Shown: positions 29,866-49,497 of the stretch, one piece after another | How positions within the stretch are numbered: position 1 is the stretch's first letter | How the letters are laid out: each line of letters opens with the position of its first letter | Virus record (IMG/VR): IMGVR_UViG_3300027771_001853 | Span: 124,001 to 188,000 of that record | Reading direction: 5' to 3' (one strand) | DNA: 64,000 nucleotides | Source: a virus | Translations under genes and position numbers: made by a program | The notes under the pieces: generated by a model | Databases searched by the model: none | What the model was told of the DNA's origin: nothing | The model's input: only the letters and a program-made list of their open reading frames with translations

Positions 29866-30354
29866 TTAGTAAACTAATATACATCTGTCTGGTCTTAGTG
29901 TTGCTGTAATATCAGCAATACCATCATTACTATAATCTAAATCATTAAAGTTAACATCCGTTAAGAAACACCCTTGTAGTATCCATTTTTCAACAACAAC
30001 ACCTGTAGGGTCTAACATTTCTAGGTCACAATCTTTTTTGTACCCAGCTGCGTAACCCATTCTACCAGTTACTGACTCGGCATGTAATCTAACCCACTCC
30101 ATTAAAGCTTGTGAAGCAGAAGGACCGATTGGGTCCCTGAATGTAACATTTATAGTATTCCAGACAAATCTACCCCCAACATACGTAGAAGTATTAAGGA
30201 AAGGTATCTCCACTGCATTAACTGTAACTTGTGGTCTAGTAGTCGTAGAAACGTACCACTCGTTAATACCAAGTGATGACGGGAATCTCATAATAAACCT
30301 ATTCTTCTTTTTTGGTTCGTAAGGAATAGGCATTTTCATCAATAAATCGGCCAT
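29866..30354 (-). CDS. Tail tube protein, gp19-like
   Basis: 162 residues, the standard size of T4 gp19 (163). It has the conserved tube pattern: KKNRFIMRFPSSLGI strand, RPQVTVNAVEIPFLN, NTINVTFRDPIGPSASQALM with the family's V-T-F-R-D, then a helix (EWVRLHAESVTGRMGYA) and final strands KWILQGCFLTDVNFNDLDY. It would polymerise as hexameric rings around the tape measure inside the sheath. A TATTTAT element is 38 bases upstream. Confidence 0.9.
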   Translation of the reverse strand: MADLLMKMPIPYEPKKKNRFIMRFPSSLGINEWYVSTTTRPQVTVNAVEIPFLNTSTYVGGRFVWNTINVTFRDPIGPSASQALMEWVRLHAESVTGRMGYAAGYKKDCDLEMLDPTGVVVEKWILQGCFLTDVNFNDLDYSNDGIADITATLRPDRCILVY

Positions 30355-30427: not shown

Positions 30428-31117
30428 CTACTTAGCTGTCATAACATAAAGCTTATTTTTTTCTTCATCAGGTAAATGTCTCTTCATTTCCTTTATAGCT
30501 TTTATATTCTTTATGTCGTCATCTATAAATATTATCTGGTCAAATGTGTCTAGTAGCGTTTTAACCACCTCCGCTTTTTTCTCATAGTCTGTACCCCCAC
30601 CTAACTCCTTAACTCTTTCAATATCATTTATGGCAAATACCAAATCTCTCGATAATTTATCACCAATTTTTATTAACTCACCATTTTTATTTTTATACAT
30701 TAAAAATTCTTTTAAACCCTCAAAAACAGTGTCTTCCATCCCTCTAGCAGTCAAAATACCTAACTTATAACCCCTAGTTAACAAATCATCCATAATCTCT
30801 AAATTAGCTACTATTGGTTTTCCTGTGGTTATTGAGTTCTTTATAGAGTCTACGTCTTCAAAATCTCTATAATCATAATACTGTCTAGTTTCTGAACTAA
30901 CGTCTTCTTTAGCGTACTCATGTGGTGTTAAGGATACTTCTTCCTCGTCAGTAGGTAATTGTCTATATATGTAAATGCCTTGTGCGGTCACTAAAGTATC
31001 GTCCACATCTAATAATATCAATCTATTAACTGAAGCTATTTCACTTAGATTTTTTTTATTTTTAATATTTTCTACTAAAAATAACAATTGTTTGTTATTA
31101 ATTACTATGTTTTTCAT
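30428..31117 (-). CDS. HAD-family phosphatase
   Basis: 229 residues. HAD motifs are clear: motif I DVDDT at 37-41 (nucleophile D37, acid D39), motif II T123 (ILTARG), motif III likely a Lys in the 165-185 helix, motif IV DDD at 199-201 (IIFIDDD). This pattern is shared by acid-phosphatase-like HADs and the 3'-phosphatase half of polynucleotide kinase (T4 PseT), but no kinase domain is present, so the substrate is open. A 30-residue N-terminal extension precedes the fold. It faces the plus-strand cassette; a TATTTAT element ends only 5 bases before the ATG. Confidence 0.8.
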   Translation of the reverse strand: MKNIVINNKQLLFLVENIKNKKNLSEIASVNRLILLDVDDTLVTAQGIYIYRQLPTDEEEVSLTPHEYAKEDVSSETRQYYDYRDFEDVDSIKNSITTGKPIVANLEIMDDLLTRGYKLGILTARGMEDTVFEGLKEFLMYKNKNGELIKIGDKLSRDLVFAINDIERVKELGGGTDYEKKAEVVKTLLDTFDQIIFIDDDIKNIKAIKEMKRHLPDEEKNKLYVMTAK

Positions 31118-31122
31118 CCCCT

Positions 31123-31129
31123 ATAAATA
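31123..31129 (-). promoter_or_regulatory. TATTTAT element, candidate late promoter (possibly leaderless)
   Basis: Coding-strand context GGTATATTTATAGGGG directly followed by the ATG of the HAD gene. If the start of transcription is 5-6 bases past the element, the mRNA begins at the AUG. Confidence 0.4.
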
Positions 31130-31142: not shown

Positions 31143-31173
31143 TTGTGTATTAAATAAAAATTTATTATCTTTG
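31143..31173 (+). promoter_or_regulatory. Bacteroidota-type promoter for the secreted-protein cassette
   Basis: TTG at 31143-31145, a 20-base spacer, and TATCTTTG at 31166-31173, a full match to the Bacteroidota -7 consensus TAnnTTTG with the expected distance to the -33 TTG. Transcription would start near 31178, about 25 bases before the ATG at 31204. Confidence 0.8.
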
Positions 31174-31203
31174 TAGTATTAACTAACTAAACCCACAAAT
31201 AAC

Positions 31204-32211
31204 ATGAAAAAACTATTATCACTACTTATTCTCTTACTTTCCTTTAATACCTTAGTTAAATCACAATTTTCCCCCAACCCGATGGTAACCACGGTAACGA
31301 TAAATAATAGTGTTACCTGTGTTGGTTTGGCGGATGGTAAAGTTACTGTTTATTCGACATATGGTGGTGGTGGTGGTTACCATTACACATTAGAAAGATG
31401 GATGGACTCTACCTTCGGTTGGGTACCTTTAGGACAGAGTCCTTTAAGTACTTTGAACCCTAATGGTAGTTTTACTATGAATTTCACATACGATACTGTT
31501 GTTTTTACAAACTTAGGTGGGGACACAAGTGGATTAACCCATTACAGGGTAATAACACACGACAACTATTGGCCTGGGGTATTTGTATCTAATAACGACA
31601 CCAATTATTTTGACATATATGATTTTACTTTAGTTAATAATCTACCCGTTGGACCTCCACCATCACCATATCAATCACATTACGACTGGTGGGTCGACAC
31701 AACTGGTATGTACCCACCTAATACGATTTTATTCGATTCTTGGAACACCAACACTTACAACCCAGATTGGGACCCGTTTGGGTGTTGGACCGTCTGGATT
31801 ATTAAAGACCCAGTTAATGGTACTTTAATTGATAGTTGTTTATCTATTGGTGGGTGTGGGGGTTACTGGTACACATGGCCTACAACTGGACTCTACTTTG
31901 AAGTCTGTGTGGTAACATGTGGTTACTATATTGATTGGTCTTGTGTATACGATTCTACCGGAATTATGATTACTCCACCACAATATTTCACTAGAGATAC
32001 TTTTTGTCTAACTGTTGGTGTGGGTGGTGTCACGAGTATAGTAGAAGACCAGTCGGAAGAGTCTACTGAGTACAACCCTAATATTTATTTTAATGGAGAG
32101 ACTATCCATGACTTATTAGGTAGGAGATATAATTGTTCTTACTTTGACCTACCTAGAGGTACCTACATAATAAAAAGAAATGAGGAAGTGTGGAAAATTC
32201 ACAAAATTTAG
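31204..32211 (+). CDS. Secreted protein with signal peptide and T9SS-like C-terminal domain
   Basis: 335 residues. The N-terminus MKKLLSLLILLLSFNTLVKS is a classic signal peptide, with likely cleavage before QFSPN. Residues about 30-70 (VTCVGLADGKVTVYSTYGGG, YHYTLERW) match the pattern of SprB-type repeats of Bacteroidota surface proteins. The middle is Trp/Tyr/Cys-rich. The end (IHDLLGRR, then FDLPRGTYIIKRNEEVWKIH) resembles the type A sorting domain of type IX secretion cargo (LLGQ...LP.GIYII...KI.K). The product should be exported to the periplasm and then the cell surface or medium. It is on the opposite strand to its neighbours, has a host promoter, and so looks like a gene for changing the infected host. 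The exact activity is unknown. Confidence 0.8.
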   Translation: MKKLLSLLILLLSFNTLVKSQFSPNPMVTTVTINNSVTCVGLADGKVTVYSTYGGGGGYHYTLERWMDSTFGWVPLGQSPLSTLNPNGSFTMNFTYDTVVFTNLGGDTSGLTHYRVITHDNYWPGVFVSNNDTNYFDIYDFTLVNNLPVGPPPSPYQSHYDWWVDTTGMYPPNTILFDSWNTNTYNPDWDPFGCWTVWIIKDPVNGTLIDSCLSIGGCGGYWYTWPTTGLYFEVCVVTCGYYIDWSCVYDSTGIMITPPQYFTRDTFCLTVGVGGVTSIVEDQSEESTEYNPNIYFNGETIHDLLGRRYNCSYFDLPRGTYIIKRNEEVWKIHKI

Positions 32212-32269
32212 TAACCTAACACCAAAAAGTAACGTATAATATAATATAACCCTTAAAACATAAAAAAAA

Positions 32270-32560
32270 ATGGACTACTTAATAGGATACATCATCATCT
32301 CAATACTTCTAATGATTGTTTTTATCGAAATGAATAAAAATGAACTATATCAAGACATGTGTGACATAAACACAAGATATAACAATAGGTTATTAGAACT
32401 AGTAAAAAATGGAGAATTAACTAATTCTAGATATGAAAGAATGTGTAGAAAGGTAGGGTCTGGTTTTAATCTATATGTGGTCGTACATTTTATAAAAGCC
32501 CCCTTCTTTGCTCCAATGATTTTTATCCTATTTCTATATAACGGCGGAAAACTTCTTTAA
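32270..32560 (+). CDS. Small membrane protein
   Basis: 96 residues with two predicted membrane spans, about 3-20 (LIGYIIISILLMIVFIEM) and about 70-90 (VVVHFIKAPFFAPMIFILF), flanking a charged helical segment with several Arg/Lys/Glu. It follows the secreted protein by 58 bases and ends just before a terminator, so the two form one cassette. Size and two-span layout allow a holin, but nothing else supports lysis, and a role with the secreted protein is equally possible. Confidence 0.6.
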   Translation: MDYLIGYIIISILLMIVFIEMNKNELYQDMCDINTRYNNRLLELVKNGELTNSRYERMCRKVGSGFNLYVVVHFIKAPFFAPMIFILFLYNGGKLL

Positions 32561-32561
32561 A

Positions 32562-32590
32562 AAAAAAAGACCCATAAGGGTCTTTTTTAT
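32562..32590. terminator. Bidirectional Rho-independent terminator
   Basis: An A-run, GACCC, loop ATAA, GGGTC, then a T-run: stem AAAAGACCC/GGGTCTTTT. It works on both strands and separates the plus-strand cassette from the convergent 396-aa gene, whose stop is 17 bases away. Confidence 0.85.
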
Positions 32591-32606
32591 TATAACTATA
32601 TTTTTT

Positions 32607-33797
32607 TTATGTTCGTGCTCCTGAATTATCTGTAGCTCCGTCATCTCCAGAAGGTAATCCTTCTTCTTCGTCTTCTACATCCATTTCAGTTCCTTCCATA
32701 TTCATGTCCATATCAACCTCGTAAAACTCAGCACTATTTCCATGTTCTTCATAAAATTCTCCACCATCAACGGCTCTTTTTAAACCAGCTTCACTTTCTG
32801 GAGAAGCGTATTCCATACCCTCACCTTCGTCATCTGAGATACCAGTCCCTAACTCTTCATCGTCTTCACCTAGACCAATTTTATCACTCGCTTTACTAGC
32901 TAAAGCTGTACCAAAGGCTGTACCAACTGCATTTCCAACTACTCTTTGCCATTGTTCACTCATTAGTTTTATTTCTTTTTCTACAGATTCGGACATTCCT
33001 TTAGCTGCTTTCTTCATAGATTCTTTTTTGTTACCATCACCATCTAAGTCTAAGTAATCTGGTTTAGGTTTTTTACCTTCTTCCATATCTTCTTCCATAC
33101 CGTCCATATCTTCGTCATGCATTCCATACATTTCTCCCATATCTTCATCAGAACCATCATCTACCATAGACTCTAACATTTCATCATTGTCCATATAACC
33201 CGTTTCATGTTCAGGATAAGGTATGTCTTGTAGAATATCTGAGTCTGGTCTTACACCTCTTTGGTCTTTTCCAGCACCCATAAGTTCTGCAGTCTTTGTC
33301 ATAAAATTAGAAAGTTTTACTATACTATTTTCTAGTTTTTGTTTTGTTGATGGGTCTTTAATATATTCCCACGCTTTTTTAACATGGTTAATTATATTTT
33401 CTATACCTTCTCCAGCTGCAACTCCAGGGTCTCTATTGTATTGTCCTTGCTCTAAAAGTGTGATTTTTTCAGTTTTTATAGCTTCACTAATTAAACTGTA
33501 AGCTTCATTCACTATTTCATCTAATTCGTCTTCTTCTTCTAGACTCAAAACAATTGTGTCATCAACCATTTCTTCACCATCATTGTCTCCACCTTCCATT
33601 CCGTTAGGGTCCATCATCATACCATCTAAATTAGCAAAACCTTCTGGACCACCTAAACATTGTTCCATTAATCTTTCAAATTGTGATTCAGTTACAACAA
33701 TATTTTGTGGTAAGTCGGAGAACGTTTTTTCACCTTCTTGTAATTTTCCACTAGTTTTTTCTACAATTTCCTCTTTTGAGTACTTAAAATCTTTCAT
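32607..33797 (-). CDS. Acidic phage protein with DLDGDG motif, possible scaffold/internal protein
   Basis: 396 residues, strongly acidic, with methionine-rich DED/EEDM tracts. Residues 243-266 (KPKPDYLDLDGDGNKKES, then MKKAAK) carry an EF-hand-like D-x-D-x-D-G loop; the same short sequence style occurs in marine T4-like phage head/scaffold-type proteins. Residues 90-180 are helical with a hydrophobic face. No firm family. It follows the sheath gene after a terminator and has its own TATTTAT element 20 bases upstream. It resembles the 257-aa acidic protein at 13792 in style but not in alignable sequence. Confidence 0.6.
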   Translation of the reverse strand: MKDFKYSKEEIVEKTSGKLQEGEKTFSDLPQNIVVTESQFERLMEQCLGGPEGFANLDGMMMDPNGMEGGDNDGEEMVDDTIVLSLEEEDELDEIVNEAYSLISEAIKTEKITLLEQGQYNRDPGVAAGEGIENIINHVKKAWEYIKDPSTKQKLENSIVKLSNFMTKTAELMGAGKDQRGVRPDSDILQDIPYPEHETGYMDNDEMLESMVDDGSDEDMGEMYGMHDEDMDGMEEDMEEGKKPKPDYLDLDGDGNKKESMKKAAKGMSESVEKEIKLMSEQWQRVVGNAVGTAFGTALASKASDKIGLGEDDEELGTGISDDEGEGMEYASPESEAGLKRAVDGGEFYEEHGNSAEFYEVDMDMNMEGTEMDVEDEEEGLPSGDDGATDNSGART

Positions 33798-33817
33798 AAT
33801 TTCTTTTTTGTTTACAA

Positions 33818-33824
33818 ATAAATA
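33818..33824 (-). promoter_or_regulatory. TATTTAT element, candidate late promoter
   Basis: Coding-strand context TTTATATTTATTTG, 20 bases before the 396-aa gene and directly after the sheath terminator, which makes an independent promoter likely here. Confidence 0.55.
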
Positions 33825-33833
33825 TAAATTAAT

Positions 33834-33863
33834 AAGAAAGAGGGCCTAAGCCCTACTTTCTTT
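33834..33863 (-). terminator. Terminator downstream of the tail sheath gene
   Basis: On the minus strand GAAAG, a bulged T, AGGGC, loop TTAG, GCCCT, CTTTC, then TTATTAATTT. It starts directly at the sheath stop codon. The plus-strand side is also followed by T-rich sequence. Confidence 0.75.
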
Positions 33864-36800
33864 TATATATCTTCAAAGTTAGCACCTGTTGGTGTTATTA
33901 AGAATTCTATGTCTATAAATTCTAATGACCTTGTTGGTTTGATATATATTTTACCTGATAGGGTATTTTGGTCTATCAATGATGGGTCATCCGAAAGTAC
34001 AACTCTAAAGTCCGTTAATCCCCTTTCTCTTCTTATAGAGTCTAAAATTGGGTTAACTAAATCTAGGAATTCGTTTCTTACTTGTTCGTCATTTTGTTCG
34101 AATAGTAATCTAACAGCTACTGCCGATATTAATTTTCTAGCTTGTAGTAACAATCTTCTAACATTAATTCTATCTAAAGCTGATTCTCTAACTTGTAGTG
34201 TTTTATTACCCCAAATTATAGTACCCACATCAGAATAAGTAGCGATTGGATTGATTCTACCTTTGTATAATATGTCTCTCTCGTCTAAAGTCAATTTCTT
34301 TCTAGCTTTAACCGCGTTTACTATACCTCTTGTATAACCTGCCGATGCGAACCATGGGAAGGCTATATTATCTGTTAATGCTATATTCCTCATTACGTCA
34401 TACGTTGGTGGGAGATATAACTGAACATTATTATCATTATCCCTAAGTTGTACCCAAGGATAGTAAGTTGCTGTATAGTTTGAATCTATCCCTGTAGCGT
34501 CTAGATTATCTACAGCTTCTTGTGGTTGTACAATATTAGTTACATTAAACGTATTAGCGTTCATACTATAGTCTGGTGTTGTAGTAACATATAACGAATC
34601 TGCTCTATCAGCTTCTATCATTTCTATAGTTTCTTCAACTAAGTTACTATGGTTAATGTAGTCAATACCTGGTGTAGCGAATACATTTATGTTCACAGCT
34701 TCTGGGTTTTGGAATGTATTGATAGCGTCTAAATAAGCGTAGTAATCTGTATTCGCTGCATCTGTTCCTCTAGTTCTAAATATACCCCAACCTGAAGCGT
34801 TTGGATATTGTGACGTTGAACATGCCCCGTAGTTCCATCCACTTTGTGACAACATGTAAGTGTCTTCATTACTTCTTGTTTTTCTGTATATATCCCATCC
34901 ATCAAACCCACCATATGGTAAGAACGTGAATTTACGTGAGAATAAGTTATAGTATGGATGGTTTGACTGTGTAGGTTCTGTAGCTAAAGAAGCGTTACCA
35001 ACTTCAAACATCGATGTTCCAGTTATACTTGCTGGAGCTGGAGAAGTGAATTTAACAACTGTTGCTCCACTATCCATATGATAACCTTTACAAAGCATCG
35101 ACCAATCATTTAATGTCTGGTTTGTACATAGATTACCGTTAGCTGGCATCGGTTTACCTTTATATTGTAAGAAGTCACTATCTATCCCCATATTATCTGA
35201 GAACCCAAGATATATCCTTCTAAACTTATCACCTGAACTATATGTTGGTGCTGCAAATGGTGGGTCCTGAACTAATTCACCTGGTTGGTCGTAGTGGGTT
35301 TTATATATCGGACAAACACCATCACAACCATTAGCTCTAGTTATGTAACCTTTAAACCCTTCTGGTACCGCGTTCCATCTAGTATCATCATCTTCATGAT
35401 AGTCAGCTACTTGTAACATAATGTACCTACTAAGAAGTTCGTACTCCCCATTAGATGTACCTACTCTTTTAGCCACATAAGAGTTAAGTGTTGGGTTCAT
35501 ACTACAACGTGTGTATTTTTCTAATACTATCGGGTTTGCGTCTGTGTCATAGAAATCACGAACTTGTATATCAAACTCTCTTCTTTCTAGACTTATATTA
35601 ATTATAGATATTTTAACTGTTGTGTTAGCTGCGTCACCATCAGGTATTGTAATAACTCTAAATAGGTCATACACATTTGTACCCCTTAATTCAGAAACAA
35701 CATATGGTGTAGCTGGTGTTTGGAATTCTTCTAAGTAGTACCCCATAGAGTTGGAACCACCTTCTTGTACTGATGGTGAAAACAATGCCTCACATCTTAT
35801 TCCTTTAATCTTACCTTGATTATAACTGTGTGTTAACCAATTTGGGTATATTTCTTCAACAAAAATTGGGACTTCTTTTCTATCTTTATCAAAAGGAGCT
35901 CTACCTAACACTCTTGGTAGGTAATCAGCGTTTCCTTGACCCATAGAAACTTTAAAAGCAAAATTAGTTCCATCATCATTCATAACATCCAAACCAAACG
36001 AAGCGAATGGGTTAGATTGTGATGCGTTATATGTACCACCTGTACAATTATACGTTACACCTGTACTAGAGATACCTGGACTTCCAGCTCCACCACCATA
36101 TTTTGGGTGTGCCCAAGCAGCGTTTGTAGGTACTTCATATACTGGACCACCAGAATCTAGACTACTAAGACCACGAGACCTTAAGGTCGCTACTGTCTTT
36201 CCATCAAAATCTTTAAATGAATGTCCAGAGAATGCACATGTTGAGAACTGTACTGTACCTGAGAATATACCTGTTGAACCAGACCAACTACCATCAGTCA
36301 TTCCGGAAACAGACATATTAAACCCTATACCGTCGTAATTACTATCCGAATTATAATTAAATAACCCGTATAACCATGGTTCGGATGCTGTTGAACACCA
36401 ATCGTCACAGTTAGTACTAAGAGCGTTCTGAGCAGTAACACCACTATAGTAAGGACTCATACCACCACCTTGGAATACTTCTTCTAAACTATCACCTGAT
36501 GATGTACAACCAAAAGTGTAAGAGGCTGTAGCAGCACTAACGAATTTATCGTATTGGGGTGTACCCGGTAAATTAATTGGTTGGTTTGGATAATTTGCTG
36601 GGTCACCAGATACTGAAGGGTCGAAACCTCCTGGGTGACTAGCTTCACTACATAACTCATCAAAGAAAGCAGTTATTTCTTTTCTTAATGATGTTGCTCC
36701 CCCATCAGCTAATGGTATGTTATTATCTATACTTCTAGCGATTAGATTCGTAGAATAGTCTCCAGCTGTTGAAGACCCACCACTAAACATCCATAACCAT

Positions 36801-37270
36801 TCATTTATACCAGTATAAATTTTACCGTCACTTAATCCTACCACTGTACATGGTGAACCTGAAAGTACAAATGAAACCGAACTAGCTGAACATGTTAGAC
36901 CAGTTACTGAATTACAATCTACAGCCCCTTGTGTACATAATTGCCACGCTGGACCTGCATCATAACCAGTGTAACCCAATACCCTAGTTACGAATAACTG
37001 GTTGGATTGGGTTAGATAACTCTTTGCTATGTAAGGTAACTCATACTTTGGGAATGTTGTGTCCACATACTTTTCAGCACTTGTAGCACCAAAATAAGAT
37101 GAGAACTCACTCCAATTAGTTATAAAAATAGGTTCAAAAGCTGGACCTCTTAAAGTCTCACCTGCTAAACCTAATGTTGTTACACCAACACTCTGTGCTA
37201 CGAATGTTAAGTCTTTTTCCGAGGTATACACACCTGGAGATACGAATACTCTATTACTGTTACTTGCCAT
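33863..37270 (-). CDS. Tail sheath protein, gp18-like, enlarged
   Basis: 1135 residues against 659 in T4. The N-terminus (FVSPGVYTSEKDLTFVAQSV, then TTLGLAGETLRGPAFEP and YIAKSYLTQSNQLFVTRVLG) and the C-terminus (RRLLLQARKLISAVAVRLLF, GLTDFRVVLSDD, GKIYIKPTRSLEFIDIEFLI) are the conserved sheath regions that form the contractile inner mesh. Between them lie several hundred extra residues rich in Gly, Ser, Asn and Cys, probably domains projecting from the sheath surface. It starts a transcription unit divergent from the small plus-strand gene and ends in a strong terminator. Confidence 0.92.
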   Translation of the reverse strand: MASNSNRVFVSPGVYTSEKDLTFVAQSVGVTTLGLAGETLRGPAFEPIFITNWSEFSSYFGATSAEKYVDTTFPKYELPYIAKSYLTQSNQLFVTRVLGYTGYDAGPAWQLCTQGAVDCNSVTGLTCSASSVSFVLSGSPCTVVGLSDGKIYTGINEWLWMFSGGSSTAGDYSTNLIARSIDNNIPLADGGATSLRKEITAFFDELCSEASHPGGFDPSVSGDPANYPNQPINLPGTPQYDKFVSAATASYTFGCTSSGDSLEEVFQGGGMSPYYSGVTAQNALSTNCDDWCSTASEPWLYGLFNYNSDSNYDGIGFNMSVSGMTDGSWSGSTGIFSGTVQFSTCAFSGHSFKDFDGKTVATLRSRGLSSLDSGGPVYEVPTNAAWAHPKYGGGAGSPGISSTGVTYNCTGGTYNASQSNPFASFGLDVMNDDGTNFAFKVSMGQGNADYLPRVLGRAPFDKDRKEVPIFVEEIYPNWLTHSYNQGKIKGIRCEALFSPSVQEGGSNSMGYYLEEFQTPATPYVVSELRGTNVYDLFRVITIPDGDAANTTVKISIINISLERREFDIQVRDFYDTDANPIVLEKYTRCSMNPTLNSYVAKRVGTSNGEYELLSRYIMLQVADYHEDDDTRWNAVPEGFKGYITRANGCDGVCPIYKTHYDQPGELVQDPPFAAPTYSSGDKFRRIYLGFSDNMGIDSDFLQYKGKPMPANGNLCTNQTLNDWSMLCKGYHMDSGATVVKFTSPAPASITGTSMFEVGNASLATEPTQSNHPYYNLFSRKFTFLPYGGFDGWDIYRKTRSNEDTYMLSQSGWNYGACSTSQYPNASGWGIFRTRGTDAANTDYYAYLDAINTFQNPEAVNINVFATPGIDYINHSNLVEETIEMIEADRADSLYVTTTPDYSMNANTFNVTNIVQPQEAVDNLDATGIDSNYTATYYPWVQLRDNDNNVQLYLPPTYDVMRNIALTDNIAFPWFASAGYTRGIVNAVKARKKLTLDERDILYKGRINPIATYSDVGTIIWGNKTLQVRESALDRINVRRLLLQARKLISAVAVRLLFEQNDEQVRNEFLDLVNPILDSIRRERGLTDFRVVLSDDPSLIDQNTLSGKIYIKPTRSLEFIDIEFLITPTGANFEDI

Positions 37271-37300
37271 TTAATTTGTTTTTTGTCTAAAAATTTAATT

Positions 37301-37350
37301 CTACTTTAGATAAATATTGAACAAAATTCAAAAAAACCGTCTTAAAGTAG
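37301..37350. repeat. Nested inverted repeats around the sheath promoter
   Basis: Outer arms CTACTTTA (37301-37308) and TAAAGTAG (37343-37350) enclose inner arms TTGAA (37317-37321) and TTCAA (37327-37331). The TATTTAT element of the sheath gene (37310-37316) sits inside. The arrangement between two divergent genes, one coding a ribbon-helix-helix-like protein, suggests an operator. Confidence 0.45.
37310..37316 (-). promoter_or_regulatory. TATTTAT element, candidate late promoter of the sheath gene
   Basis: Coding-strand context TTCAATATTTATCTAA, 39 bases before the sheath ATG, inside a nested inverted repeat. Confidence 0.55.
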
Positions 37351-37404
37351 GATAATATCTAATAAGTGGGAATTAAATAATACTTTTTTCATACTTATTA
37401 AAAA

Positions 37405-37572
37405 ATGTTAGATTTGAAGACGATAAGAACAAAAAATATTAAAATAAAACCTAGGGTTCACAAGCTCCTAAAAGAGTATTGTGATAAACACGGTCTAAAG
37501 ATGTTTGCTTTTGTAGAAAAACTCATATCTGAAAAATGTGAACAAAAAAAAGATGTATACGGAGATTATTAG
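37405..37572 (+). CDS. Small ribbon-helix-helix-like protein
   Basis: 55 residues, MLDLKTIRTKNIKIKPRVHK then LLKEYCDKHGLKMFAFVEKL. A basic beta strand (KIKPRV), helix (HKLLKEYCDKHG) and second helix (FAFVEKLISEKC) fit the ribbon-helix-helix (Arc/MetJ-type) DNA-binding fold. The frame is short but the residue pattern is clearly protein-like. It is the only plus-strand gene between the sheath and neck genes, divergent from the sheath; its stop overlaps the stop of the convergent 364-aa gene by 3 bases. It may regulate the divergent region. Confidence 0.7.
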   Translation: MLDLKTIRTKNIKIKPRVHKLLKEYCDKHGLKMFAFVEKLISEKCEQKKDVYGDY

Positions 37573-38663
37573 TCTAAAGTGACTTTAAGTCTCTGTAAAG
37601 CATCTTCCGTAATATCACTTTTAGTTATGTCCATTTGTAGTAAATCACCAGAATTTATATATAATGGTAAACTAACCCCTATTTGAGCACCACCTTGTGG
37701 TTTAATAAAAACATTGTTTATTACACCTATGTTTGAGGCCTCATCTATGTCTATTTTACAAGTAAAATCAAATAAGTAATAAGCCGTAGTTATATTATCA
37801 CCAAAACTCAACCCAATATATATTGTTTTTGGGTTATCACTTTCTGGGACTTTGTGTTTTTCTCCCTTATGTACTTTTGTGTTTACCTCAAATAATGTCA
37901 ATGTACGACTGATTGCTGGACTTATTTCAAACTCATCTTCATCTATCAAAAATCCCTGCATTTGGAATTGGTAGGTTTGACTGTAGAATTTTCTACTTTC
38001 TAAGTCTGTTAGTTGGGAACTGTCTGTTATATTTTCCAATACTATCGGGATGTAGTGCCCTTTAACAAAAGTGTAGGCTTGTCGTGAAGTGAACCTTTGC
38101 ATAACAACCCTGTTAAATAAATTAACTTCTCTCATCCTATTACAAATAACTCTTACGTCGTAAACAATATCTACAGGTACCGGTTGTGGTATCTTATACA
38201 AATCCATCCCTTTTCTTTGTCCGTCCCATGTTGGGACTTTTGCGTAATGAAATTGTTTACGATTAGGTATGGTGTACTTTAATGAAGGATTACTACCAAA
38301 ATTAACATCTGGTCTTCTAACTACCGATATAAAAGGTAACTTAATATTTTTATCTAAATCAGAAAATTTCCAAGTCTGTGTAAATTCACCCCATCTTTGA
38401 GCTGTTAGAATCCTGTCTATTACTGGTATCTCTTTACCATTGATTGTCGACTCTAATTTATCTTTAACGAATTCTAACATCCCTAAATCTAAATCTTCGT
38501 GTAACACACTTTTTGGTAAGAAAGTACCGTCATCTTGTATAAACTCTGCTAATTGTTGTCTTCTTTTTGGCGTAGTTCTACCATCATACCCATGAGGGTA
38601 TTCGTTTTGTCCCTTAACTGTCGGGTACGGATTTAATGTTTTTTTAACTTTTTTTGGTAACAT
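37569..38663 (-). CDS. Tail completion / sheath stabiliser, gp15-like
   Basis: 364 residues from the ATG at 38663. This start is chosen because AAAGGA lies just upstream and the longer open frame would run far into the preceding gene. The core (VPVDIVYDVRVICNRMREVN, LFNRVVMQRFTSRQAY, then GHYIPIVLENITDSSQL and FQMQGFLIDEDEFEISPAIS) has the look of gp15-type tail terminator proteins, in which subunits cap the tube and sheath. The link to gp15 is from pattern and from its position next to neck and sheath genes, so medium confidence. T4 gp15 is 272 aa. Confidence 0.6.
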   Translation of the reverse strand: MLPKKVKKTLNPYPTVKGQNEYPHGYDGRTTPKRRQQLAEFIQDDGTFLPKSVLHEDLDLGMLEFVKDKLESTINGKEIPVIDRILTAQRWGEFTQTWKFSDLDKNIKLPFISVVRRPDVNFGSNPSLKYTIPNRKQFHYAKVPTWDGQRKGMDLYKIPQPVPVDIVYDVRVICNRMREVNLFNRVVMQRFTSRQAYTFVKGHYIPIVLENITDSSQLTDLESRKFYSQTYQFQMQGFLIDEDEFEISPAISRTLTLFEVNTKVHKGEKHKVPESDNPKTIYIGLSFGDNITTAYYLFDFTCKIDIDEASNIGVINNVFIKPQGGAQIGVSLPLYINSGDLLQMDITKSDITEDALQRLKVTLD

Positions 38664-38664
38664 A

Positions 38665-39183
38665 TTATATTCCTTTAAATTCGTTTTCTGATACTGGGGT
38701 ACAAATAATACTTCTAAAAAAAGCTTTATACCCACCCATAGTATGTGCATTATCATTTTGTATTCTACCATCATCCGCCACCACAAAATATCTCACCCTA
38801 TCTTCTTTTTCTGGATAACCCACATAATCACCATAACTAATATTGATGGACAATTCTTTTAAATGTTTATCATAAACAGAGAATGTTAAATTTCCGGATT
38901 CTTTATACTCCACTAAACCATCCGCGTATGAAGTGTTTTTAGGTGTATCAATCTTTAGGGACCCCACATTAAACTCTACAGGTGGAAAAAACCTTATTTC
39001 CTCTGGTCCTGATTCAGCATACACAGCATCAACATCACTCTTTTTTCTATCAACCCTAAACAACACTAAAGTAAAATTTAAATCACCATCAACATATTCT
39101 TTACCCATATCGATATTAATATCAAAATCTTCTTTAGAAAAAAACTTGTTTAATCTTTTAATTGGTATTTTCTTTTGTTCCAT
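38665..39183 (-). CDS. Neck protein, possibly gp14-like
   Basis: 172 residues, mainly beta. It has the C-terminal motif YPEKEDRVRYFVVADDGRI, then AHTMGGYKAFFRSIICTPV, which I associate with gp14-type neck proteins of T4-like phages, though T4 gp14 is longer (256 aa). The stop is one base before the start of the gp15-like gene, which agrees with a head-tail connection pair. A TATTTAT element is 19 bases upstream. Alternative: a different tail completion protein. Confidence 0.5.
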   Translation of the reverse strand: MEQKKIPIKRLNKFFSKEDFDINIDMGKEYVDGDLNFTLVLFRVDRKKSDVDAVYAESGPEEIRFFPPVEFNVGSLKIDTPKNTSYADGLVEYKESGNLTFSVYDKHLKELSINISYGDYVGYPEKEDRVRYFVVADDGRIQNDNAHTMGGYKAFFRSIICTPVSENEFKGI

Positions 39184-39202
39184 AATTAAATTTATCTATA
39201 TT

Positions 39203-39209
39203 ATAAATA
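39203..39209 (-). promoter_or_regulatory. TATTTAT element, candidate late promoter
   Basis: Coding-strand context AAACTATTTATAATA, 19 bases before the neck gene, in the 61-base divergent gap shared with the SNF2 helicase promoter. Confidence 0.5.
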
Positions 39210-39210
39210 G

Positions 39211-39241
39211 TTTGTTTTTTAGTCTTGATTAGTTATACTTG
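39211..39241 (+). promoter_or_regulatory. Bacteroidota-type promoter of the SNF2 helicase gene
   Basis: TTTG, a 19-base spacer, then TATACTTG at 39234-39241, one mismatch to TAnnTTTG. It ends three bases before the ATG at 39245, so transcription may begin at or next to the start codon. Confidence 0.6.
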
Positions 39242-39244
39242 GAT

Positions 39245-40999
39245 ATGTCTATAGATAGTAATATACCGGAACATAAAGCGCTAGCTATTTTAAAGGAGTA
39301 TAGTGGTGCTAATAACTACATCTTACAGATGAAGAAAAACCTTTTTACCTATAGTAGATGGAAGATGGGGACAGGTCAAAGAGATTACATACTTACCCAC
39401 CACGAAACAACACCAAAAGTAGCGAAAAAATGGGTAGAGATAGATTCTTATTTTGGTGAGCAGTTACAAGAAACCAGACTACTAACATACAAACCAAAAG
39501 AATTATACATAGAAAAACTTCTAACTCAAACAGATAAAGCTTACCACGTATATGGTAAAGTGTTTTCAGCTGACACACTAAATTGTTTATGGGTACCTAA
39601 ATCACAAATAGTTTCAGACACATCAAAACCTATAGATGTGGATTATGAACCATTTAAACATAGAGAACCTTTTATACACCAAAAAGAAGCTATAGAAAAA
39701 CTAGTAGCGAATGAAAAATATATCCTAGCTGACGATATGGGTCTTGGTAAAACAACTTCAGCTGTAATCGCCTCTATAGTTAAAGAATTTAAAAAAATAT
39801 TAGTAATATGTCCAGCTTCATTAAAAATTAACTGGGAAAGGGAGATTAGGAACTACAGTGATGATTCAATATCACTGGTTGAGGGTAAGAAATGGCAGTC
39901 ATCAAAATACATAATAATAAATTATGACATATTAAAAAACTTTCACTCTATACCTAAAAAAGATGAGGTAGTTACGAGTCAGATATTGGAAGAAGATTTT
40001 GATTTAATCATAATAGATGAAGCCCACTACATTTCTAATGGAAAAGCTCAAAGAAGTAAAATAGTTAATGATATTTGTAAAAAAGTACAACACGTATGGT
40101 TACTTAGTGGTACACCTATGACATCAAGACCAATTAATTACTATAACTTACTAAAAATAGTAGGCAGTAGGGTTTCCGCAAACTGGCGTTCTTATGTACT
40201 AAGGTACTGTGAAGGTAGACAATTTAGAGCTCACGGTGGTAGAAAAATATGGAACGTTAATGGGGCCTCTAATCTAGAAGAATTAAGAGATAGGACCAAT
40301 AATAAAGTATTAAGAAGATTAAAGGAAGATGTGTTAGATTTACCAGACAAAATTATAACACCAATATATCTAGATTTAAAATCTAAAGATTATGAAAAGG
40401 AGGTCGGTGAGTATCTGGATTGGAATACCAGAACTTCTAACCAAAGTATAACCGTTCATTTATCTAAATTAACAAAAATTAGACAAATACTAGCTTGGAA
40501 CAAATTAGACTATACCTGTGAACTTATTGACCAAGCTATAGAGCAAGAAAAAAAAGTAATTGTTTTTTGTAACTTTACTGACCCTTTACTGGAATTAGGT
40601 AGGAGGTATGAAAAAAATTCTGTCCTTTTATACGGACAAATGAGTAAAGAAGATAGACAAAAAAGTGTAGATTCTTTCCAAACTGACCCAAACACCCAAA
40701 TATTCATATCCAACATTAAAGCTGGTGGGGTGGGTATTACTTTGACAGCTGCTGAAGCGGTAATAATGAATGATTTATCATTTGTTCCTTCTGACCATTC
40801 CCAAGCAGAAGATAGAGCATTTAGGATAGGCCAAAAAAAGAATGTTTCTTGTTTTTACCCAATATTTGATAATACGATAGAGAGGGTAATTTATAATATT
40901 CTCGCAAACAAAAAACGAGTAATAGATACGGTTATGGGTGACAATATACCCGAAGAAGACATATTTACTGAGATACTATCGGAAATCCAAACACTTTAG
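39245..40999 (+). CDS. SNF2-family helicase (SMARCAL1-like)
   Basis: 584 residues from the ATG at 39245; a TTG six bases earlier also opens the frame but lies inside the promoter. Superfamily 2 motifs: I DDMGLGKT at 163-170, Ia (LVICPASL), II DEAH at 258-261, III (WLLSGTPMTSRP), IV-VI (VIVFCNF, SNIKAGGVGITLTAAEAVI, SQAEDRAFRIGQKKNV). The R-x-G-Q end is typical for SNF2 proteins. SMARCAL1-type enzymes anneal DNA and remodel forks, so the likely role is in phage replication or recombination, comparable to UvsW. It is the first gene of the plus-strand unit. Confidence 0.88.
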   Translation: MSIDSNIPEHKALAILKEYSGANNYILQMKKNLFTYSRWKMGTGQRDYILTHHETTPKVAKKWVEIDSYFGEQLQETRLLTYKPKELYIEKLLTQTDKAYHVYGKVFSADTLNCLWVPKSQIVSDTSKPIDVDYEPFKHREPFIHQKEAIEKLVANEKYILADDMGLGKTTSAVIASIVKEFKKILVICPASLKINWEREIRNYSDDSISLVEGKKWQSSKYIIINYDILKNFHSIPKKDEVVTSQILEEDFDLIIIDEAHYISNGKAQRSKIVNDICKKVQHVWLLSGTPMTSRPINYYNLLKIVGSRVSANWRSYVLRYCEGRQFRAHGGRKIWNVNGASNLEELRDRTNNKVLRRLKEDVLDLPDKIITPIYLDLKSKDYEKEVGEYLDWNTRTSNQSITVHLSKLTKIRQILAWNKLDYTCELIDQAIEQEKKVIVFCNFTDPLLELGRRYEKNSVLLYGQMSKEDRQKSVDSFQTDPNTQIFISNIKAGGVGITLTAAEAVIMNDLSFVPSDHSQAEDRAFRIGQKKNVSCFYPIFDNTIERVIYNILANKKRVIDTVMGDNIPEEDIFTEILSEIQTL

Positions 41000-41000
41000 A

Positions 41001-41007
41001 TATTTAT
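41001..41007 (+). promoter_or_regulatory. TATTTAT element on the plus strand, candidate late promoter
   Basis: TAGATATTTATTAG, beginning one base after the helicase stop codon and ending 15 bases before the plus-strand neck gene. It shows that the element follows the gene's strand. Confidence 0.55.
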
Positions 41008-41022
41008 TAGTAAACAACTAAT

Positions 41023-42141
41023 ATGGCTAATATCGATAGTACAGCAAGAAATAGATTATATACCCAAGCAAAGCATTTATTAGGTGCTCCTATAAGGGGT
41101 ATTGAATTGGAGGAGGAGATGATGGACACTCTACTAGATTTATCTATTTTAGATTATGGGATGTATGTACAGGATTGGTTGATAGAAAATCAATGGGCTG
41201 GGGTAGCTGGTATTAATGTTAGTGAAGTAGATTTAGCTTCGGCATTCCTAACCAGAAGTTTAGATTTTGAAACCTCATTTACTTACGCGTATTCTAAGAT
41301 AGCTGGTTTACAGGCTGGGGGACCGTGGGAATTAAAAAAAGATTTTGTTATGTTATCTCCAGGACAACAAATTTACCAAATACCAAAATGTAGAGAAGTG
41401 AATGAAGTTTTATGGTTTGCTAGGGCCGAACTTGATAGTATGATGATTGACCCGTTTCTTGGTGGGTTTGGTGGAATGGGTGGTATTGGTCAAGGTGGTG
41501 GAATGGGTGGAGCCCAGATGGGTGTTATGGGGTCTTATTATATGATGCCAGCTTTCGATATCCTATTAAGGATGGGTGACCGTAACCTTAAAAATCGTTT
41601 AATCGGTGGTGACTTAACTTATAGAATAACAGCAGGACCTGAAGGTACTAAATTTTTACATCTATATTCCACTCCAGGTGGTAGATTTGATTTCGGTAAT
41701 ATGGAAAGAAACCAATCTAAGGTTTGGTATTGGTATTATGAAACTTGTACTGATAGAGATAACTGTTTAAGTGACAATCCTGATGTGGTGAGATTACCTT
41801 CTGATGTACCTATTGATGACATACAATGGAATGAGTTAAATGCTCCAGCTAGAGCATGGGTAAGACGTTACTTCTTTGCGATGTGTAAAGAAACACTTGG
41901 TAGGGTTAGGGGTAAGTACCAGGGTGCTTTAAAGGTACCTGACGCTGATTTAACCATGGATTGGGACACATTACTTACTGAAGCTAAGGATGAGAAATCA
42001 AAATTAATTGAGGAGCTTATGGCAAGATTAGAAAGATTACGTAATGACAAGATGTTGGAACGTAAGGCTTCAGAAGCTGAAAATTTAAATAAATCTCTCG
42101 GGTACAGACCTATGAATCCGGGAAGTATATACGTGATATAA
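41023..42141 (+). CDS. Neck protein, probably gp13-like
   Basis: 372 residues. The N-terminus is helical (MANIDSTARNRLYTQAKHLL). The middle has a Gly/Met-rich loop (about 145-170). The C-terminal part (APARAWVRRYFFAMCKETLG, then KVPDADLTMDWDTLL and IEELMARLERL, KASEAENLNKSLGYRP) has the pattern I know from gp13-type neck proteins of marine T4-like phages, which close the head after DNA filling. T4 gp13 is 309 aa. The stop overlaps the next ATG by one base (TAATG). It is separated from the gp14/gp15-like genes by the divergent helicase gene. Confidence 0.6.
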   Translation: MANIDSTARNRLYTQAKHLLGAPIRGIELEEEMMDTLLDLSILDYGMYVQDWLIENQWAGVAGINVSEVDLASAFLTRSLDFETSFTYAYSKIAGLQAGGPWELKKDFVMLSPGQQIYQIPKCREVNEVLWFARAELDSMMIDPFLGGFGGMGGIGQGGGMGGAQMGVMGSYYMMPAFDILLRMGDRNLKNRLIGGDLTYRITAGPEGTKFLHLYSTPGGRFDFGNMERNQSKVWYWYYETCTDRDNCLSDNPDVVRLPSDVPIDDIQWNELNAPARAWVRRYFFAMCKETLGRVRGKYQGALKVPDADLTMDWDTLLTEAKDEKSKLIEELMARLERLRNDKMLERKASEAENLNKSLGYRPMNPGSIYVI

Positions 42142-43010
42142 TGGCATTCAGAACAAAAGCAGATTTTTCAAGACAAATATACCAAAGATGTGGTACAACC
42201 GCTATCATGTCAGGGTCCACCTATATGGGTGATAATTTAAGTGTGGGTTATTTTAGTGGTGAAACTTATAATTTTAGTGTAACCGAAACAACAAGTGGAT
42301 TAACTGAGGTAGCTGGTATCCATACAGGTGTAACCACAGTACTCGCTGTTAATATGGCCCCGGTACTAAGTGGTAGGTCTTCAATACAAATAAACCCAAC
42401 ATCGGTAAGGACTGGTACAGCTCAAGACGATATGACACTAGAAAGTAATGGTGATGTTAGAATTACTGTGTCTTCTAGAAGGTTTAAAACTAACATAGAA
42501 CCACACACTTTTTCTAATTTAGATAATTTATTATTATTAGAACCTAAGCTTTTCAATTACAAACAAACAGGTGAGGAGGACTTTGGGTATATTGCGGAAG
42601 AGGTGGAGGACCTAGGTCTTAAAGATTTTGTAAGTTATGAATTAGATGGGGTAACACCTAGAAACGTAAAATACAAATATCTAGCTATAGGACTTATAGA
42701 GTTACTAAAAAAAGATGTTATTAATTTTAACCAAAATAAGGTTACTAAAGTTATTAGTGGGGAACATACTTCTGAAGGTGAAGACTATATTATAACCAAA
42801 GGAAGTGGTGCCACAATATTGTTAGATGATAAGAAAAATGGTAGGATTTACATAAAATCCATGACCACTACCATGGTAAAACCTTTAAGTGGTTTAATCG
42901 ACGAAAAATGGTCGGAGATTGAATTAGGTGAGGAGAGTAGTGTAGAACTGGTTCACCATGAAAATAACTGGTATATTTTATCTTCTGACGGAATTAAGGA
43001 GTCTAATTAG
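42141..43010 (+). CDS. Tail fibre/virion protein with S74 intramolecular chaperone
   Basis: 289 residues. A short beta stalk (1-105) is followed by an endosialidase-type chaperone domain: S112-R-R-F-K116 (family S-[D/x]-x-R-x-K, where cleavage falls before the Ser), NIEPHTFSNLDNLLLLEPKL, then FGYIAEEVEDLGL and VKYKYLAIGLIELLKK. In characterised examples this domain trims itself off after helping a trimer fold. Here it lies internally, with about 100 further beta-rich residues after it, so cleavage would release a larger tail piece. It is translationally coupled to the neck gene and its end overlaps the convergent DNA polymerase gene. Confidence 0.75.
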   Translation: MAFRTKADFSRQIYQRCGTTAIMSGSTYMGDNLSVGYFSGETYNFSVTETTSGLTEVAGIHTGVTTVLAVNMAPVLSGRSSIQINPTSVRTGTAQDDMTLESNGDVRITVSSRRFKTNIEPHTFSNLDNLLLLEPKLFNYKQTGEEDFGYIAEEVEDLGLKDFVSYELDGVTPRNVKYKYLAIGLIELLKKDVINFNQNKVTKVISGEHTSEGEDYIITKGSGATILLDDKKNGRIYIKSMTTTMVKPLSGLIDEKWSEIELGEESSVELVHHENNWYILSSDGIKESN

Positions 43011-45711
43011 TTATTACTTCTAAGAACGAGTCTTCAGACAACCCCATCTTATCCCAAAATATTTTTTCTTCTTTAGAGACACTCATTACCTCTTCGAACG
43101 TATCTTGGTCAAACTCTCTTCTAGGTATACCTTTTATTAATTCACATTGTTTACTAGTAAAAAATTGTCTATCTTCTGGTTTTTTAACTAATAAAGATTC
43201 TCTAACATCAGGGTGAAAAACAACTAATAATGGTTCCACTCTTTTATTAAATACATTAATGTATCTAGCTATGTTATACTCCCCCGTCAATTCAGGATTT
43301 TTATCTAATTCGTCTTTATCTATCAAATAACACCTTAATAAAATTTCTACACTACCATCTTTAGCTTTTTTTCTTTGTACGTCACCATGAGACATAGCTG
43401 TACCATTATTTATATAATAGATTGTTTGTCCTAAATCTACCTGTACATTTTCTCTAATAACTAATTCCATGTGTGCTTGTCTAGACATAGGGTTTCCAGA
43501 CTTAGTAACCTGTAAACACCTTTTTTTATAATCTGGTATTTTTAATTTAATTCTAGCTTTATTGGCTATTTTAATTAATGGTATCTGTTTATTGTATATT
43601 TTTTCAAAATGTTCATAATAATATTCTATAAAATCTTGACCTTTACCAGCTAAAAGTAACCTTAAACCTTTATCTATAAACTCTTCCAAATACCCTTGTA
43701 GTTTTTTAGATTTTATGGAATTACCTGTCAACTTTACACCACCAGTATCCGTTAATAATGCGTAATTTTTTCTCGCTACATTTATAGCTGCTGGCCAAAC
43801 ACCGTCAGTGTCTAACCCCATTTCGTCTTTCATAAATAAATCATTATACTCAGCTACATGTGCCTCGGTACCCAAATATTCTTTATCTTTCACTACAAGT
43901 TCATTTAACCCCTTCCCTACATATTTTAATTCCGATACGTTATCTGGTGCTGAAAAATTCACACCATCCGTATCCAACACTAATGGTTCGTAACCTCTGT
44001 CATCAAAAAATTTAATCATATGTCTTAGGTATTGTCTACCAGTACATGTGATTTTTTCACCCATATCCATATCACCCCAAGGGAAGACCTGTGGTGCTGA
44101 CAATGAACCAAACATAGAGTTAATAAAGATTTTTATTGGTAGTTGTTTAGCTCCAAACGATTTCGATAGTTTTGGGTCACTCTTGTAGTGTTTTGATGCC
44201 AAATTTTTATACATGATACGAGTATCTCTAAAATATTTTAACATCCCTTTCATAGCCCCCGTAACATCACATTCTGGAAAAACATCGTGAACTAATTGTA
44301 TGGAGGGGTATAGAGAACTAAAATCTAATTTAAGTACGTTAACCGCGTAACCAACCTTTAACAATCTAGATAAACCACCAACAAAAGGTCTTTTTTCTTT
44401 TTTCTTAGGGATAGCCAAACCTTTACCGTACGACCAAGTTAACATTAACATTTTCCATAATGTCGCTGTACCCATTGTAGATACCCTTTCATATGTTGTT
44501 GGTACTAGTCCAGCTAATAAAAATGAAGCCTGGTTATATTCGGCATCAACAACTTGGGTTTCCCACAAATCATCCATAAGGTACCTTTCTACGATATATT
44601 CACCATTAACTCTTTTATATTTATCAGGAAATCTCATTTGTAGATTTTCCAATCCTGGTGTGTCAATATCTTTATACACCCCAGTTTCTGGGTTTAAATA
44701 AAATTCTTTATTTTCTCTGTATGTCGAAGCAATCTTATCCCCTTCTAGATAAATCCTGTTAGGTTTACTAGCTCCAATATATTCTGTTATATACTTTAGT
44801 CCCCAACTTTTTATGTCTGAATTAATGGTTTGAGCTCTCCTTACCGAATGTGCTACATCAATACTATTGTACCCCCATATTTTTATTTGGTTATAATCTT
44901 CTACTTCAGCTCCTAATTTTAACATCCCTGATTTAATCGATATAGGGGTATTTGGGTTTAATGTTTTTGCTATTTTTTTTATGTCTAGACCTAGAATCTC
45001 AGCTCTTTCGAATATCCAATTCCAGTCAAAGTTGGATGAGTTGTACCCACCTATTATTGAGGGTTTTAGTTTGTCTATAGTATCAAAAAATTCTATGATT
45101 CCTTTTCTTTCACTTTCATCGTCAATGGCTTCCACAACCTTTTCAAACCCTCTATTATCCTTCATACCGAACATAAAGATTCTACCATCTTTAGGGTCTA
45201 AAGATGTTGTTTCTAAATCAAATATAAACCTATGTACTTCATCATAATCACTAAAGCCTTTAAATAATCTTTTTTGTTTTTGTATAAGGTATTGTTCTAC
45301 TGGTGTTAGTAATGTTATTGAATCTCTATTTTCCTTTGCCCAAGGGTCCACACCACCTTGTTTAAAAAATGAGACTAAATCCCTATATGTCTTTGTGGAT
45401 TTAACTAAAAATGTAAGTCCTTGTTCTAACCTTTCGTTCCCATGGGTATCCAACTTCTCAATAACTATTCCATATTTGGATATGGCCTCTTTTTGTTGTT
45501 GTTTGTTACCCCTATAAAAATTCTTATCTTTTAAGTCACCAACCCAACAAAACGGGATAAAGGTATCTGAAATTATTTTCTTACCGTGTTCAGGGTCTTC
45601 TATTACTTTATAGATTTTATTGGTTCTCCAACCATACTCTACAGCGACAATATACTTTTCAGGGTCTTTACCTTGTAAAAATTCTTCTATTTCTTTTGGT
45701 GTGGGATTCAT
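43003..45711 (-). CDS. DNA polymerase, family B, T4 gp43-like
   Basis: 902 residues (T4 gp43 is 898). The 3'-5' exonuclease has D165/E167 (FIFDLETTSLD) and YNSSNFDWNWIFERA. Polymerase motif A D463 (LKLDFSSLYPSIQ), motif B near 520-535 (KQLPIKIFINSMFGSL), motif C D580/D582 (VLDTDGVNF). Motif C has Gly where most family B enzymes have Ser (DTDS). It replicates the phage genome with the helicase, SSB and exonuclease coded elsewhere in the window. Its 3' end overlaps the convergent fibre gene by 8 bases. A promoter of host type lies upstream. Confidence 0.93.
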   Translation of the reverse strand: MNPTPKEIEEFLQGKDPEKYIVAVEYGWRTNKIYKVIEDPEHGKKIISDTFIPFCWVGDLKDKNFYRGNKQQQKEAISKYGIVIEKLDTHGNERLEQGLTFLVKSTKTYRDLVSFFKQGGVDPWAKENRDSITLLTPVEQYLIQKQKRLFKGFSDYDEVHRFIFDLETTSLDPKDGRIFMFGMKDNRGFEKVVEAIDDESERKGIIEFFDTIDKLKPSIIGGYNSSNFDWNWIFERAEILGLDIKKIAKTLNPNTPISIKSGMLKLGAEVEDYNQIKIWGYNSIDVAHSVRRAQTINSDIKSWGLKYITEYIGASKPNRIYLEGDKIASTYRENKEFYLNPETGVYKDIDTPGLENLQMRFPDKYKRVNGEYIVERYLMDDLWETQVVDAEYNQASFLLAGLVPTTYERVSTMGTATLWKMLMLTWSYGKGLAIPKKKEKRPFVGGLSRLLKVGYAVNVLKLDFSSLYPSIQLVHDVFPECDVTGAMKGMLKYFRDTRIMYKNLASKHYKSDPKLSKSFGAKQLPIKIFINSMFGSLSAPQVFPWGDMDMGEKITCTGRQYLRHMIKFFDDRGYEPLVLDTDGVNFSAPDNVSELKYVGKGLNELVVKDKEYLGTEAHVAEYNDLFMKDEMGLDTDGVWPAAINVARKNYALLTDTGGVKLTGNSIKSKKLQGYLEEFIDKGLRLLLAGKGQDFIEYYYEHFEKIYNKQIPLIKIANKARIKLKIPDYKKRCLQVTKSGNPMSRQAHMELVIRENVQVDLGQTIYYINNGTAMSHGDVQRKKAKDGSVEILLRCYLIDKDELDKNPELTGEYNIARYINVFNKRVEPLLVVFHPDVRESLLVKKPEDRQFFTSKQCELIKGIPRREFDQDTFEEVMSVSKEEKIFWDKMGLSEDSFLEVITN

Positions 45712-45735
45712 ATTTGGTTATTTCATTATACTCAG

Positions 45736-45766
45736 TAAGTATAACACAATAACTTCAATACGTCAA
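45736..45766 (-). promoter_or_regulatory. Host-type promoter of the DNA polymerase gene
   Basis: On the minus strand TTGACG (45761-45766), 17 bases, TATACT (45738-45743), close to the sigma-70 consensus; read the Bacteroidota way it is TTG, 20 bases, TATACTTA. It starts directly after the preceding gene's stop and leaves about a 20-base leader to the ATG at 45711. Confidence 0.65.
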
Positions 45767-46153: not shown

Positions 46154-46154
46154 T

Positions 46155-47687: not shown

Positions 47688-47726
47688 ATGTCCTTTATAT
47701 ATTAAATATCATTTAATTGTGTCTTT

Positions 47727-49187: not shown

Positions 49188-49206
49188 TTTTTCTTATTTT
49201 TATTTT

Positions 49207-49497
49207 TTATACAAAGTCTGTTCCGTAAAGTACTAGTTCACCATCTATACCTAAAGTACCACCTTGATTTATATATTCATCCGCATGAAATGTTTGCATG
49301 TTTTCAAAGATGCAATAGGTGTCCCCAACTTTGAGTGGGGATGGGTGAGCTCCTAGACTTAACATTTTTAGTAAGTCTTTAGTTCCCGCTACAGTGTGAC
49401 ATAACTGAGTTAACGTCACGCTAGAATAGAAAGTAGTTGGTAGGGGTATGTCCCCACCTTGGAAAACTTCTATTATATTTTTACAATTACAACTCAT
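49207..49497 (-). CDS. Small tail-associated protein
   Basis: 96 residues, no family. It begins MSCNCKNIIEVFQGGDIPLP; the Cys-x-Cys start and Gly-rich strands fit the fibre cluster. The start codon shares one base with the stop of the 1051-aa gene (coupled translation). Confidence 0.55.
   Translation of the reverse strand: MSCNCKNIIEVFQGGDIPLPTTFYSSVTLTQLCHTVAGTKDLLKMLSLGAHPSPLKVGDTYCIFENMQTFHADEYINQGGTLGIDGELVLYGTDFV

Follow-up and report, generated by a model that had tools for sequence, protein, structure and literature searches.

A conserved cassette with exchangeable, putatively envelope-directed cargo set against the tail genes of a giant phage

Why should a phage carry a short transcription unit pointing against its own tail genes, and where would the products of such a unit go? 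The question is raised by positions 31143-32588 of the window, i.e. the 64-kb stretch analysed here, which comprises bases 124001-188000 of a virus record of 297,623 bp. A preliminary description had regarded this unit as a moron that is expressed from the host sigma factor and sends a protein to the cell surface through the host type IX secretion system (T9SS), with altered adhesion, a block to superinfection or changed gliding offered as guesses at its effect. Phage-family matches in the genome include a tail sheath, a tail tube, a helicase, a ribonucleotide reductase and a DNA polymerase, the sheath being similar to its counterparts in giant phages, T4-like ones among them. A host among the Bacteroidota is indicated by promoters of the host type, by T9SS signals and by a TonB-dependent receptor with Hymenobacter as its nearest match. 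The best plasmid matches of this receptor are from Hymenobacter at 34% identity, and a search of genome contigs recovered no close relative, placing the host only to Bacteroidota.

A plus-strand unit among minus-strand tail genes

The unit consists of a promoter, a gene for a 335-residue, putatively exported protein (C335), a gene for a 96-residue membrane protein (C96) and a terminator. As originally described, it runs antisense to minus-strand tail genes, with a HAD-like gene and the tail tube on one side and a gene for a 396-residue protein and the tail sheath on the other (Table 1). That the contig might be chimeric at this point was considered and rejected: a second contig agrees with it at 99.994% identity across 17 kb, which speaks against an accident of assembly, and related phages show the same gene order.

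Table 1. Features of the cassette and its flanks (window positions)
Feature	Position	Strand	Basis or remark
Tail tube gene (phrog_4542)	29866..30354	-	flank
HAD-like gene	30428..31117	-	flank, divergent from the cassette; reads from a TATTTATA late-type motif
Bacteroidota-type promoter, TTG-N20-TATCTTTG	31143..31173	+	TTG 31143-31145, TATCTTTG 31166-31173
C335, 335-aa putatively exported protein, variable passenger	31204..32211	+	ORF; homologues at the same site
Signal-peptide-like N-terminus of C335, residues 1-21 (..NTLVKSQ)	31204..31266	+	hydropathy
SprB-repeat-like segment of C335, residues 36-63, sub-threshold	31309..31392	+	PF13573
Short T9SS type A-like C-terminal module of C335, residues 298-335	32095..32208	+	alignment, motif scan
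C96, 96-aa two-helix membrane protein, constant member	32270..32560	+	AlphaFold2; relatives at the same site
Bidirectional intrinsic terminator, AAAAAAGACCC-ATAA-GGGTCTTTTTT	32563..32588	both	hairpin, -14.2 kcal/mol
396-aa protein gene	32607..33797	-	flank, convergent with the cassette
Tail sheath gene (phrog_23)	33863..37270	-	flank

The promoter ends 30 nt before the ATG of C335. Across the genome the full pattern TTG-N17-23-TAnnTTTG stands upstream of 10 of 278 genes, C335 among them, as against 2.3 expected, and TATCTTTG occurs only twice within the window. The core precedes the cassette in all 47 related contigs (42 with TATCTTTG, 5 with TATCTTTA), and hence is not there by chance; over approximately 986 kb of related loci, counting both strands, only 73 copies of TATCTTTG are present, of which 42 lie at the cassette. 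Many phage genes, including the tail genes, are instead preceded by the motif TATTTATA (39 upstream regions against 6.4 expected), which is the complement of TATAAATA in T4 and probably serves this phage as a late promoter of its own. Throughout the genome this motif usually lies no more than 20 nt upstream of start codons, as for example at window positions 31122-31129 on the minus strand. Given that TATTTATA is absent upstream of C335, which has a full host-type promoter, we infer that the cassette is expressed early or constitutively by the host polymerase. At the far end of the cassette, hairpins equivalent to its bidirectional terminator are found in 10 of 11 loci.

The description of this unit as a moron under the host sigma factor is thus strongly supported, since promoter, antisense position and terminator are all conserved in related loci. 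Without need of the phage's TATTTATA-type promoters, the host RNA polymerase, carrying the housekeeping sigma factor, would initiate at the cassette's TATCTTTG promoter, and the resulting transcript, antisense to the late tail genes, would end at the terminator. A conserved promoter in this orientation makes early versus late expression directly testable. In a number of relatives (L112, L116, L117, L123, L131 and others), and in many cassettes of the lipoprotein type, only 4 nt separate the promoter end from the ATG (TATCTTTGTAGTATG), a spacing that suggests a leaderless, early mRNA.

A constant membrane protein and an exchangeable passenger

With the tail tube as query, at least 598 related stretches of viral DNA were recovered, the closest of which, L110, carries both C335 and C96 at the same antisense site. 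Searches with C335 against phage records and genome contigs and in a first viral scan returned either nothing or the protein itself, and its relatives were recovered only via the tail tube and C96. These homologues, in L204/L110, L205 and L206, occupy the same site at 72-74% identity. Compared with its counterpart in L110, C335 is 73% identical (dN 0.16, dS 0.84, dN/dS about 0.19), with identity of 90% in the signal-peptide-like N-terminus, 84% in the C-terminal module and 67-76% in the middle; C96 is 84% identical (dN/dS about 0.075/0.60, i.e. dN 0.075 and dS 0.60), although its identity in distant members is only 28-43%. Both proteins are under purifying selection, and C335 is conserved most at its two ends.

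The family of C96 extends to 49 viral contigs. In all 47 that were analysed it lies at the same antisense site with the promoter core in place, while the gene upstream of it varies: C335 occupies this position in 4 contigs (the window's own phage among them), a lipoprotein of 190-192 residues in 22, a secreted protein of about 145 residues in 12 (7 of which also have the lipoprotein) and a secreted protein of 203 residues in 1, and 15 have no passenger at all. On a tail-sheath tree of 31 contigs with C96 the passenger type has switched at least 6 times. Because C96 and the promoter are fixed at the site while the upstream gene varies, C96 is, by this comparison, the core of the cassette and the exterior protein its exchangeable part, a division of roles that the preliminary description had overlooked. 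The passenger is exchanged or absent between related phages with the neighbouring genes undisturbed, and both sequence and conservation give the unit a promoter and terminator of its own. This pattern identifies the cassette as a real, conserved moron with exchangeable cargo predicted to be for the envelope, and we regard an autonomous envelope cassette as very likely.

AlphaFold2 predicts C96 to be two long helices (pLDDT 83), in agreement with its earlier characterization as a small membrane protein. No match was found among known PHROG and Pfam families, including those of holins, and fold searches gave nothing above noise, holins again included. A small protein with two transmembrane helices that adjoins genes for secreted proteins or lipoproteins could conceivably be a holin or antiholin, with the lipoprotein passengers being spanin-like and the whole cassette a unit for lysis or its timing. 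We consider this quite improbable, given the lack of holin matches in the searches just mentioned, and given that the lipoproteins reach 190-192 residues and are missing from many relatives, that the cassette is read against the late operon from a promoter of the host type and not from the phage's TATTTATA, and that the phage encodes a lysozyme elsewhere (genome positions 52552-53160). In view of this promoter and of the lysozyme being encoded apart, a fixed, putative inner-membrane protein combined with a fast-changing exterior partner would fit a role in excluding other phages better than one in lysis.

C335 and the type IX signals of the phage

The N-terminus of C335 is hydrophobic and ends in VKSQ by a hydropathy scan, and residues 2-22 are helical in a low-confidence model. 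AlphaFold2, run on two sequences, gave a pLDDT of 34 for the protein, and its C-terminal module is too short for the full seven-stranded Ig-like fold of a T9SS C-terminal domain (CTD). The segment that had been called SprB-like shows similarity to PF13573 in C335 (E=0.011, 15.8 bits) and at the same place in its homologue (E=0.0027, 17.8 bits), but both values fall below the gathering cut-off of 28 bits, so that the segment is suggestive only. The SprB/RemA-type T9SS cargo of gliding Bacteroidota (PMC10202324), whose layout C335 would share, combines a signal peptide, a sorting signal at the opposite end and an SprB-like repeat, and differs from C335 in that the latter is short, phage-borne and of sub-threshold SprB similarity.

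The proposed likeness of the C-terminus to a T9SS sorting domain stood in part. The C-terminus (DLLGRR...DLPRGTYII...KIHKI) is real and conserved, and carries at its extreme end a type A motif D (of the G-x-Y type) and motif E (a C-terminal lysine), as in DLPRGTYIIKRNEEVWKIHKI. TIGR04183 and TIGR04131, the models that had been put forward for it, do not match C335, and T9SS models including TIGR04183 and PF18962 likewise gave no match for C335, its homologue or the short C-termini. The importance of motifs D and E for T9SS sorting is documented (PMC10202324), and in the case of HBP35 the last 22 residues, which contain both, are reported to suffice for T9SS export of GFP (reviewed in PMC10202324). 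Other signal-peptide proteins of this phage, not otherwise related, share the module: the C-terminus of C335 aligns to that of a 432-residue signal-peptide protein with z=12.7, and the latter to the TIGR04183 domain of a 1321-residue protein with z=5.7, whereas direct alignment of C335 to this true type A C-terminus gives z=0.7, which is background. The link of C335 to a bona fide type A domain is accordingly transitive only, through the 432-residue protein. Comparison of profiles of the short and full C-termini with hhalign was not significant (probability 3%), and a PDB search with the short profile alone found no T9SS match; when true type A members are added to the profile T9SS CTDs are found, which is circular with regard to C335. 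Among 281 genes, a scan for D/E-type motifs returned 4 signal-peptide proteins and 1 other gene, compared with 17 matches in 56,200 shuffled C-termini; the pattern was written after these proteins were known, and the shuffles only bound its chance rate. The short C-terminus of a further phage protein, of 172 residues, resembles the extreme C-terminus of a leucine-rich repeat (LRR) protein of Prevotella nigrescens (43% identity, E=0.02). Since the short C-terminus of the Prevotella protein gave no match to T9SS models either, this resemblance is no independent proof that the short form acts as a T9SS signal.

That the phage as a whole equips proteins for the host T9SS is supported by the same genome, which encodes a type A cargo, the above 1321-residue protein with GCTD repeats (TIGR04183, 40-44 bits, above cut-off), and a type B cargo of 176 residues (TIGR04131, 40 bits, above cut-off; CHU_C, 49.5 bits). 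Within the clade defined by the tail tube, records of 110, 191 and 256 kb have type A or type B signals above cut-off. Two published uncultured phages, LR745206.1 (634,780 bp) and LR756502.1 (642,428 bp), together have seven type B signals, six of them above cut-off, and three type A signals, two above cut-off; four of the type B signals are in LR745206.1. A scan of viral contigs for the type B domain gave 328 matches, a number to be read in light of the fact that IMG/VR contigs can include cellular DNA. In the present genome the type A protein lies in a cluster of host-surface genes (genome positions 32099-48099), which also includes an 801-residue TonB-dependent heme-type receptor, outer-membrane-protein-like genes, a lipoprotein and a thioredoxin-like protein with the short C-terminal module.

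For C335 itself, for which the evidence is indirect (the transitive link and the motifs), we consider transport by T9SS plausible and likely but unproven, and do not file it as a member of TIGR04183. The alternative is that C335 remains periplasmic or in the outer membrane, its C-terminus being a conserved small beta domain rather than a T9SS signal, in which case the cassette could still serve in exclusion or envelope remodelling. We consider this reading somewhat unlikely: the lack of a T9SS model match, shared by the related Prevotella C-terminus, speaks for it, as does the fact that the module is missing from the majority of the alternative passengers, which are lipoproteins or small secreted proteins, most passengers in relatives having no T9SS-like end. 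It is countered by the sharing of the module with other phage signal-peptide proteins, including one that can be aligned to a bona fide type A domain, and by the clear use of T9SS signals on other proteins of this phage.

The idea that phages encode T9SS cargo is not in itself the first of its kind, having been reported once, as unique, for Cryophage (Bellas et al. 2020, PMC7468147); no later report was found in the literature searched. There too, genes for secreted proteins with T9SS sorting domains vary between phage variants, and its authors propose superinfection exclusion or competition between strains (PMC7468147). The Cryophage cargo, however, consists of genes of a variable island (endoglucanase, GH39, PA14), whereas C335 is the passenger of a fixed cassette among tail genes and its putative sorting signal, a short form, is not covered by the curated models. 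What is new here is the fixed unit of promoter, C96 and terminator with swappable cargo.

A possible role at the host envelope

As an overall explanation we favor, at roughly even odds in our judgement, that this giant, T4-like Bacteroidota phage keeps in its tail operon an envelope-modifying moron that closes the cell to rivals. C335 would pass the inner membrane via Sec by its N-terminus; the short type A-like end of the protein would then most likely deliver it to the host T9SS for placement on or outside the outer membrane, while C96 is predicted to reside in the inner membrane with its two helices. A phage-made envelope protein could block an outer-membrane receptor, for which the lipoproteins Llp of T5 and Cor offer a parallel (PMC9586334), Llp being a small phage envelope protein that jams the receptor (PMC9586334); lipoproteins are also found in many of the cassette's relatives. 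C335 differs in being no lipoprotein and in having a conserved membrane protein as its partner, and we draw the likeness by analogy, claiming no sequence relation. The exchangeable exterior protein may by the same analogy mask or alter the host surface or receptor.

A second line of analogy concerns the inner membrane. The Imm protein of T4 is a small inner-membrane exclusion protein with two membrane segments. SieA of P22 is an inner-membrane protein that excludes incoming phages (PMC10883804). No PHROG or Pfam link was found for C96, and the comparison is one of analogy only, by which the constant C96 might act at a later step, e.g. DNA entry. Jointly or in parallel, C96 and the exterior protein would leave the infected cell closed to competing phages. 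Superinfection exclusion is our best guess at the function, albeit one we hold at slightly short of even confidence. The more specific possibility of a two-layer exclusion in giant Bacteroidota phages, not described before, in which a constant C96 always made from the host-type promoter is combined with a swappable exterior protein riding the host T9SS in some lineages, is put forward tentatively.

The passenger might otherwise be an SprB-like adhesion or gliding factor that alters the movement or sticking of infected cells and thereby aids contact with new hosts. The sub-threshold SprB repeat in C335 is consistent with this, and the 642-kb phage LR756502.1 encodes a 1670-residue protein (514378-519390) with 13 SprB repeats, a PKD domain and a type B signal, resembling a gliding adhesin. 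Yet SprB similarity in C335 amounts to a single degenerate segment at most, the lipoproteins that replace it in relatives have none, and a constant inner-membrane protein is left unexplained, making this an improbable reading. If exclusion by an envelope cassette is correct, lytic giant phages of Bacteroidota would re-dress the host surface through the host's own T9SS, using a modular unit in which the exterior part is swapped and the inner-membrane part is fixed. It would also provide a concrete candidate for superinfection exclusion in this phylum, for which none was found in the literature searched, and natural short C-terminal signals for probing the minimal sequence needed by T9SS.

The genome additionally encodes a glutamine synthetase (PF00120/PF03951) and a DUF2828/DUF7788 protein, at genome positions 57191-58219 and 48483-49916. 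Many of its otherwise unrelated proteins share a similar short N-terminal peptide (of the type L-x-E/K..L..xIxKE), for example those encoded at genome positions 293431-293889, 294200-294601 and 45228-45650 and by the HAD-like gene at window positions 30428-31117, a peptide reminiscent of a virion-targeting or cleavable leader.
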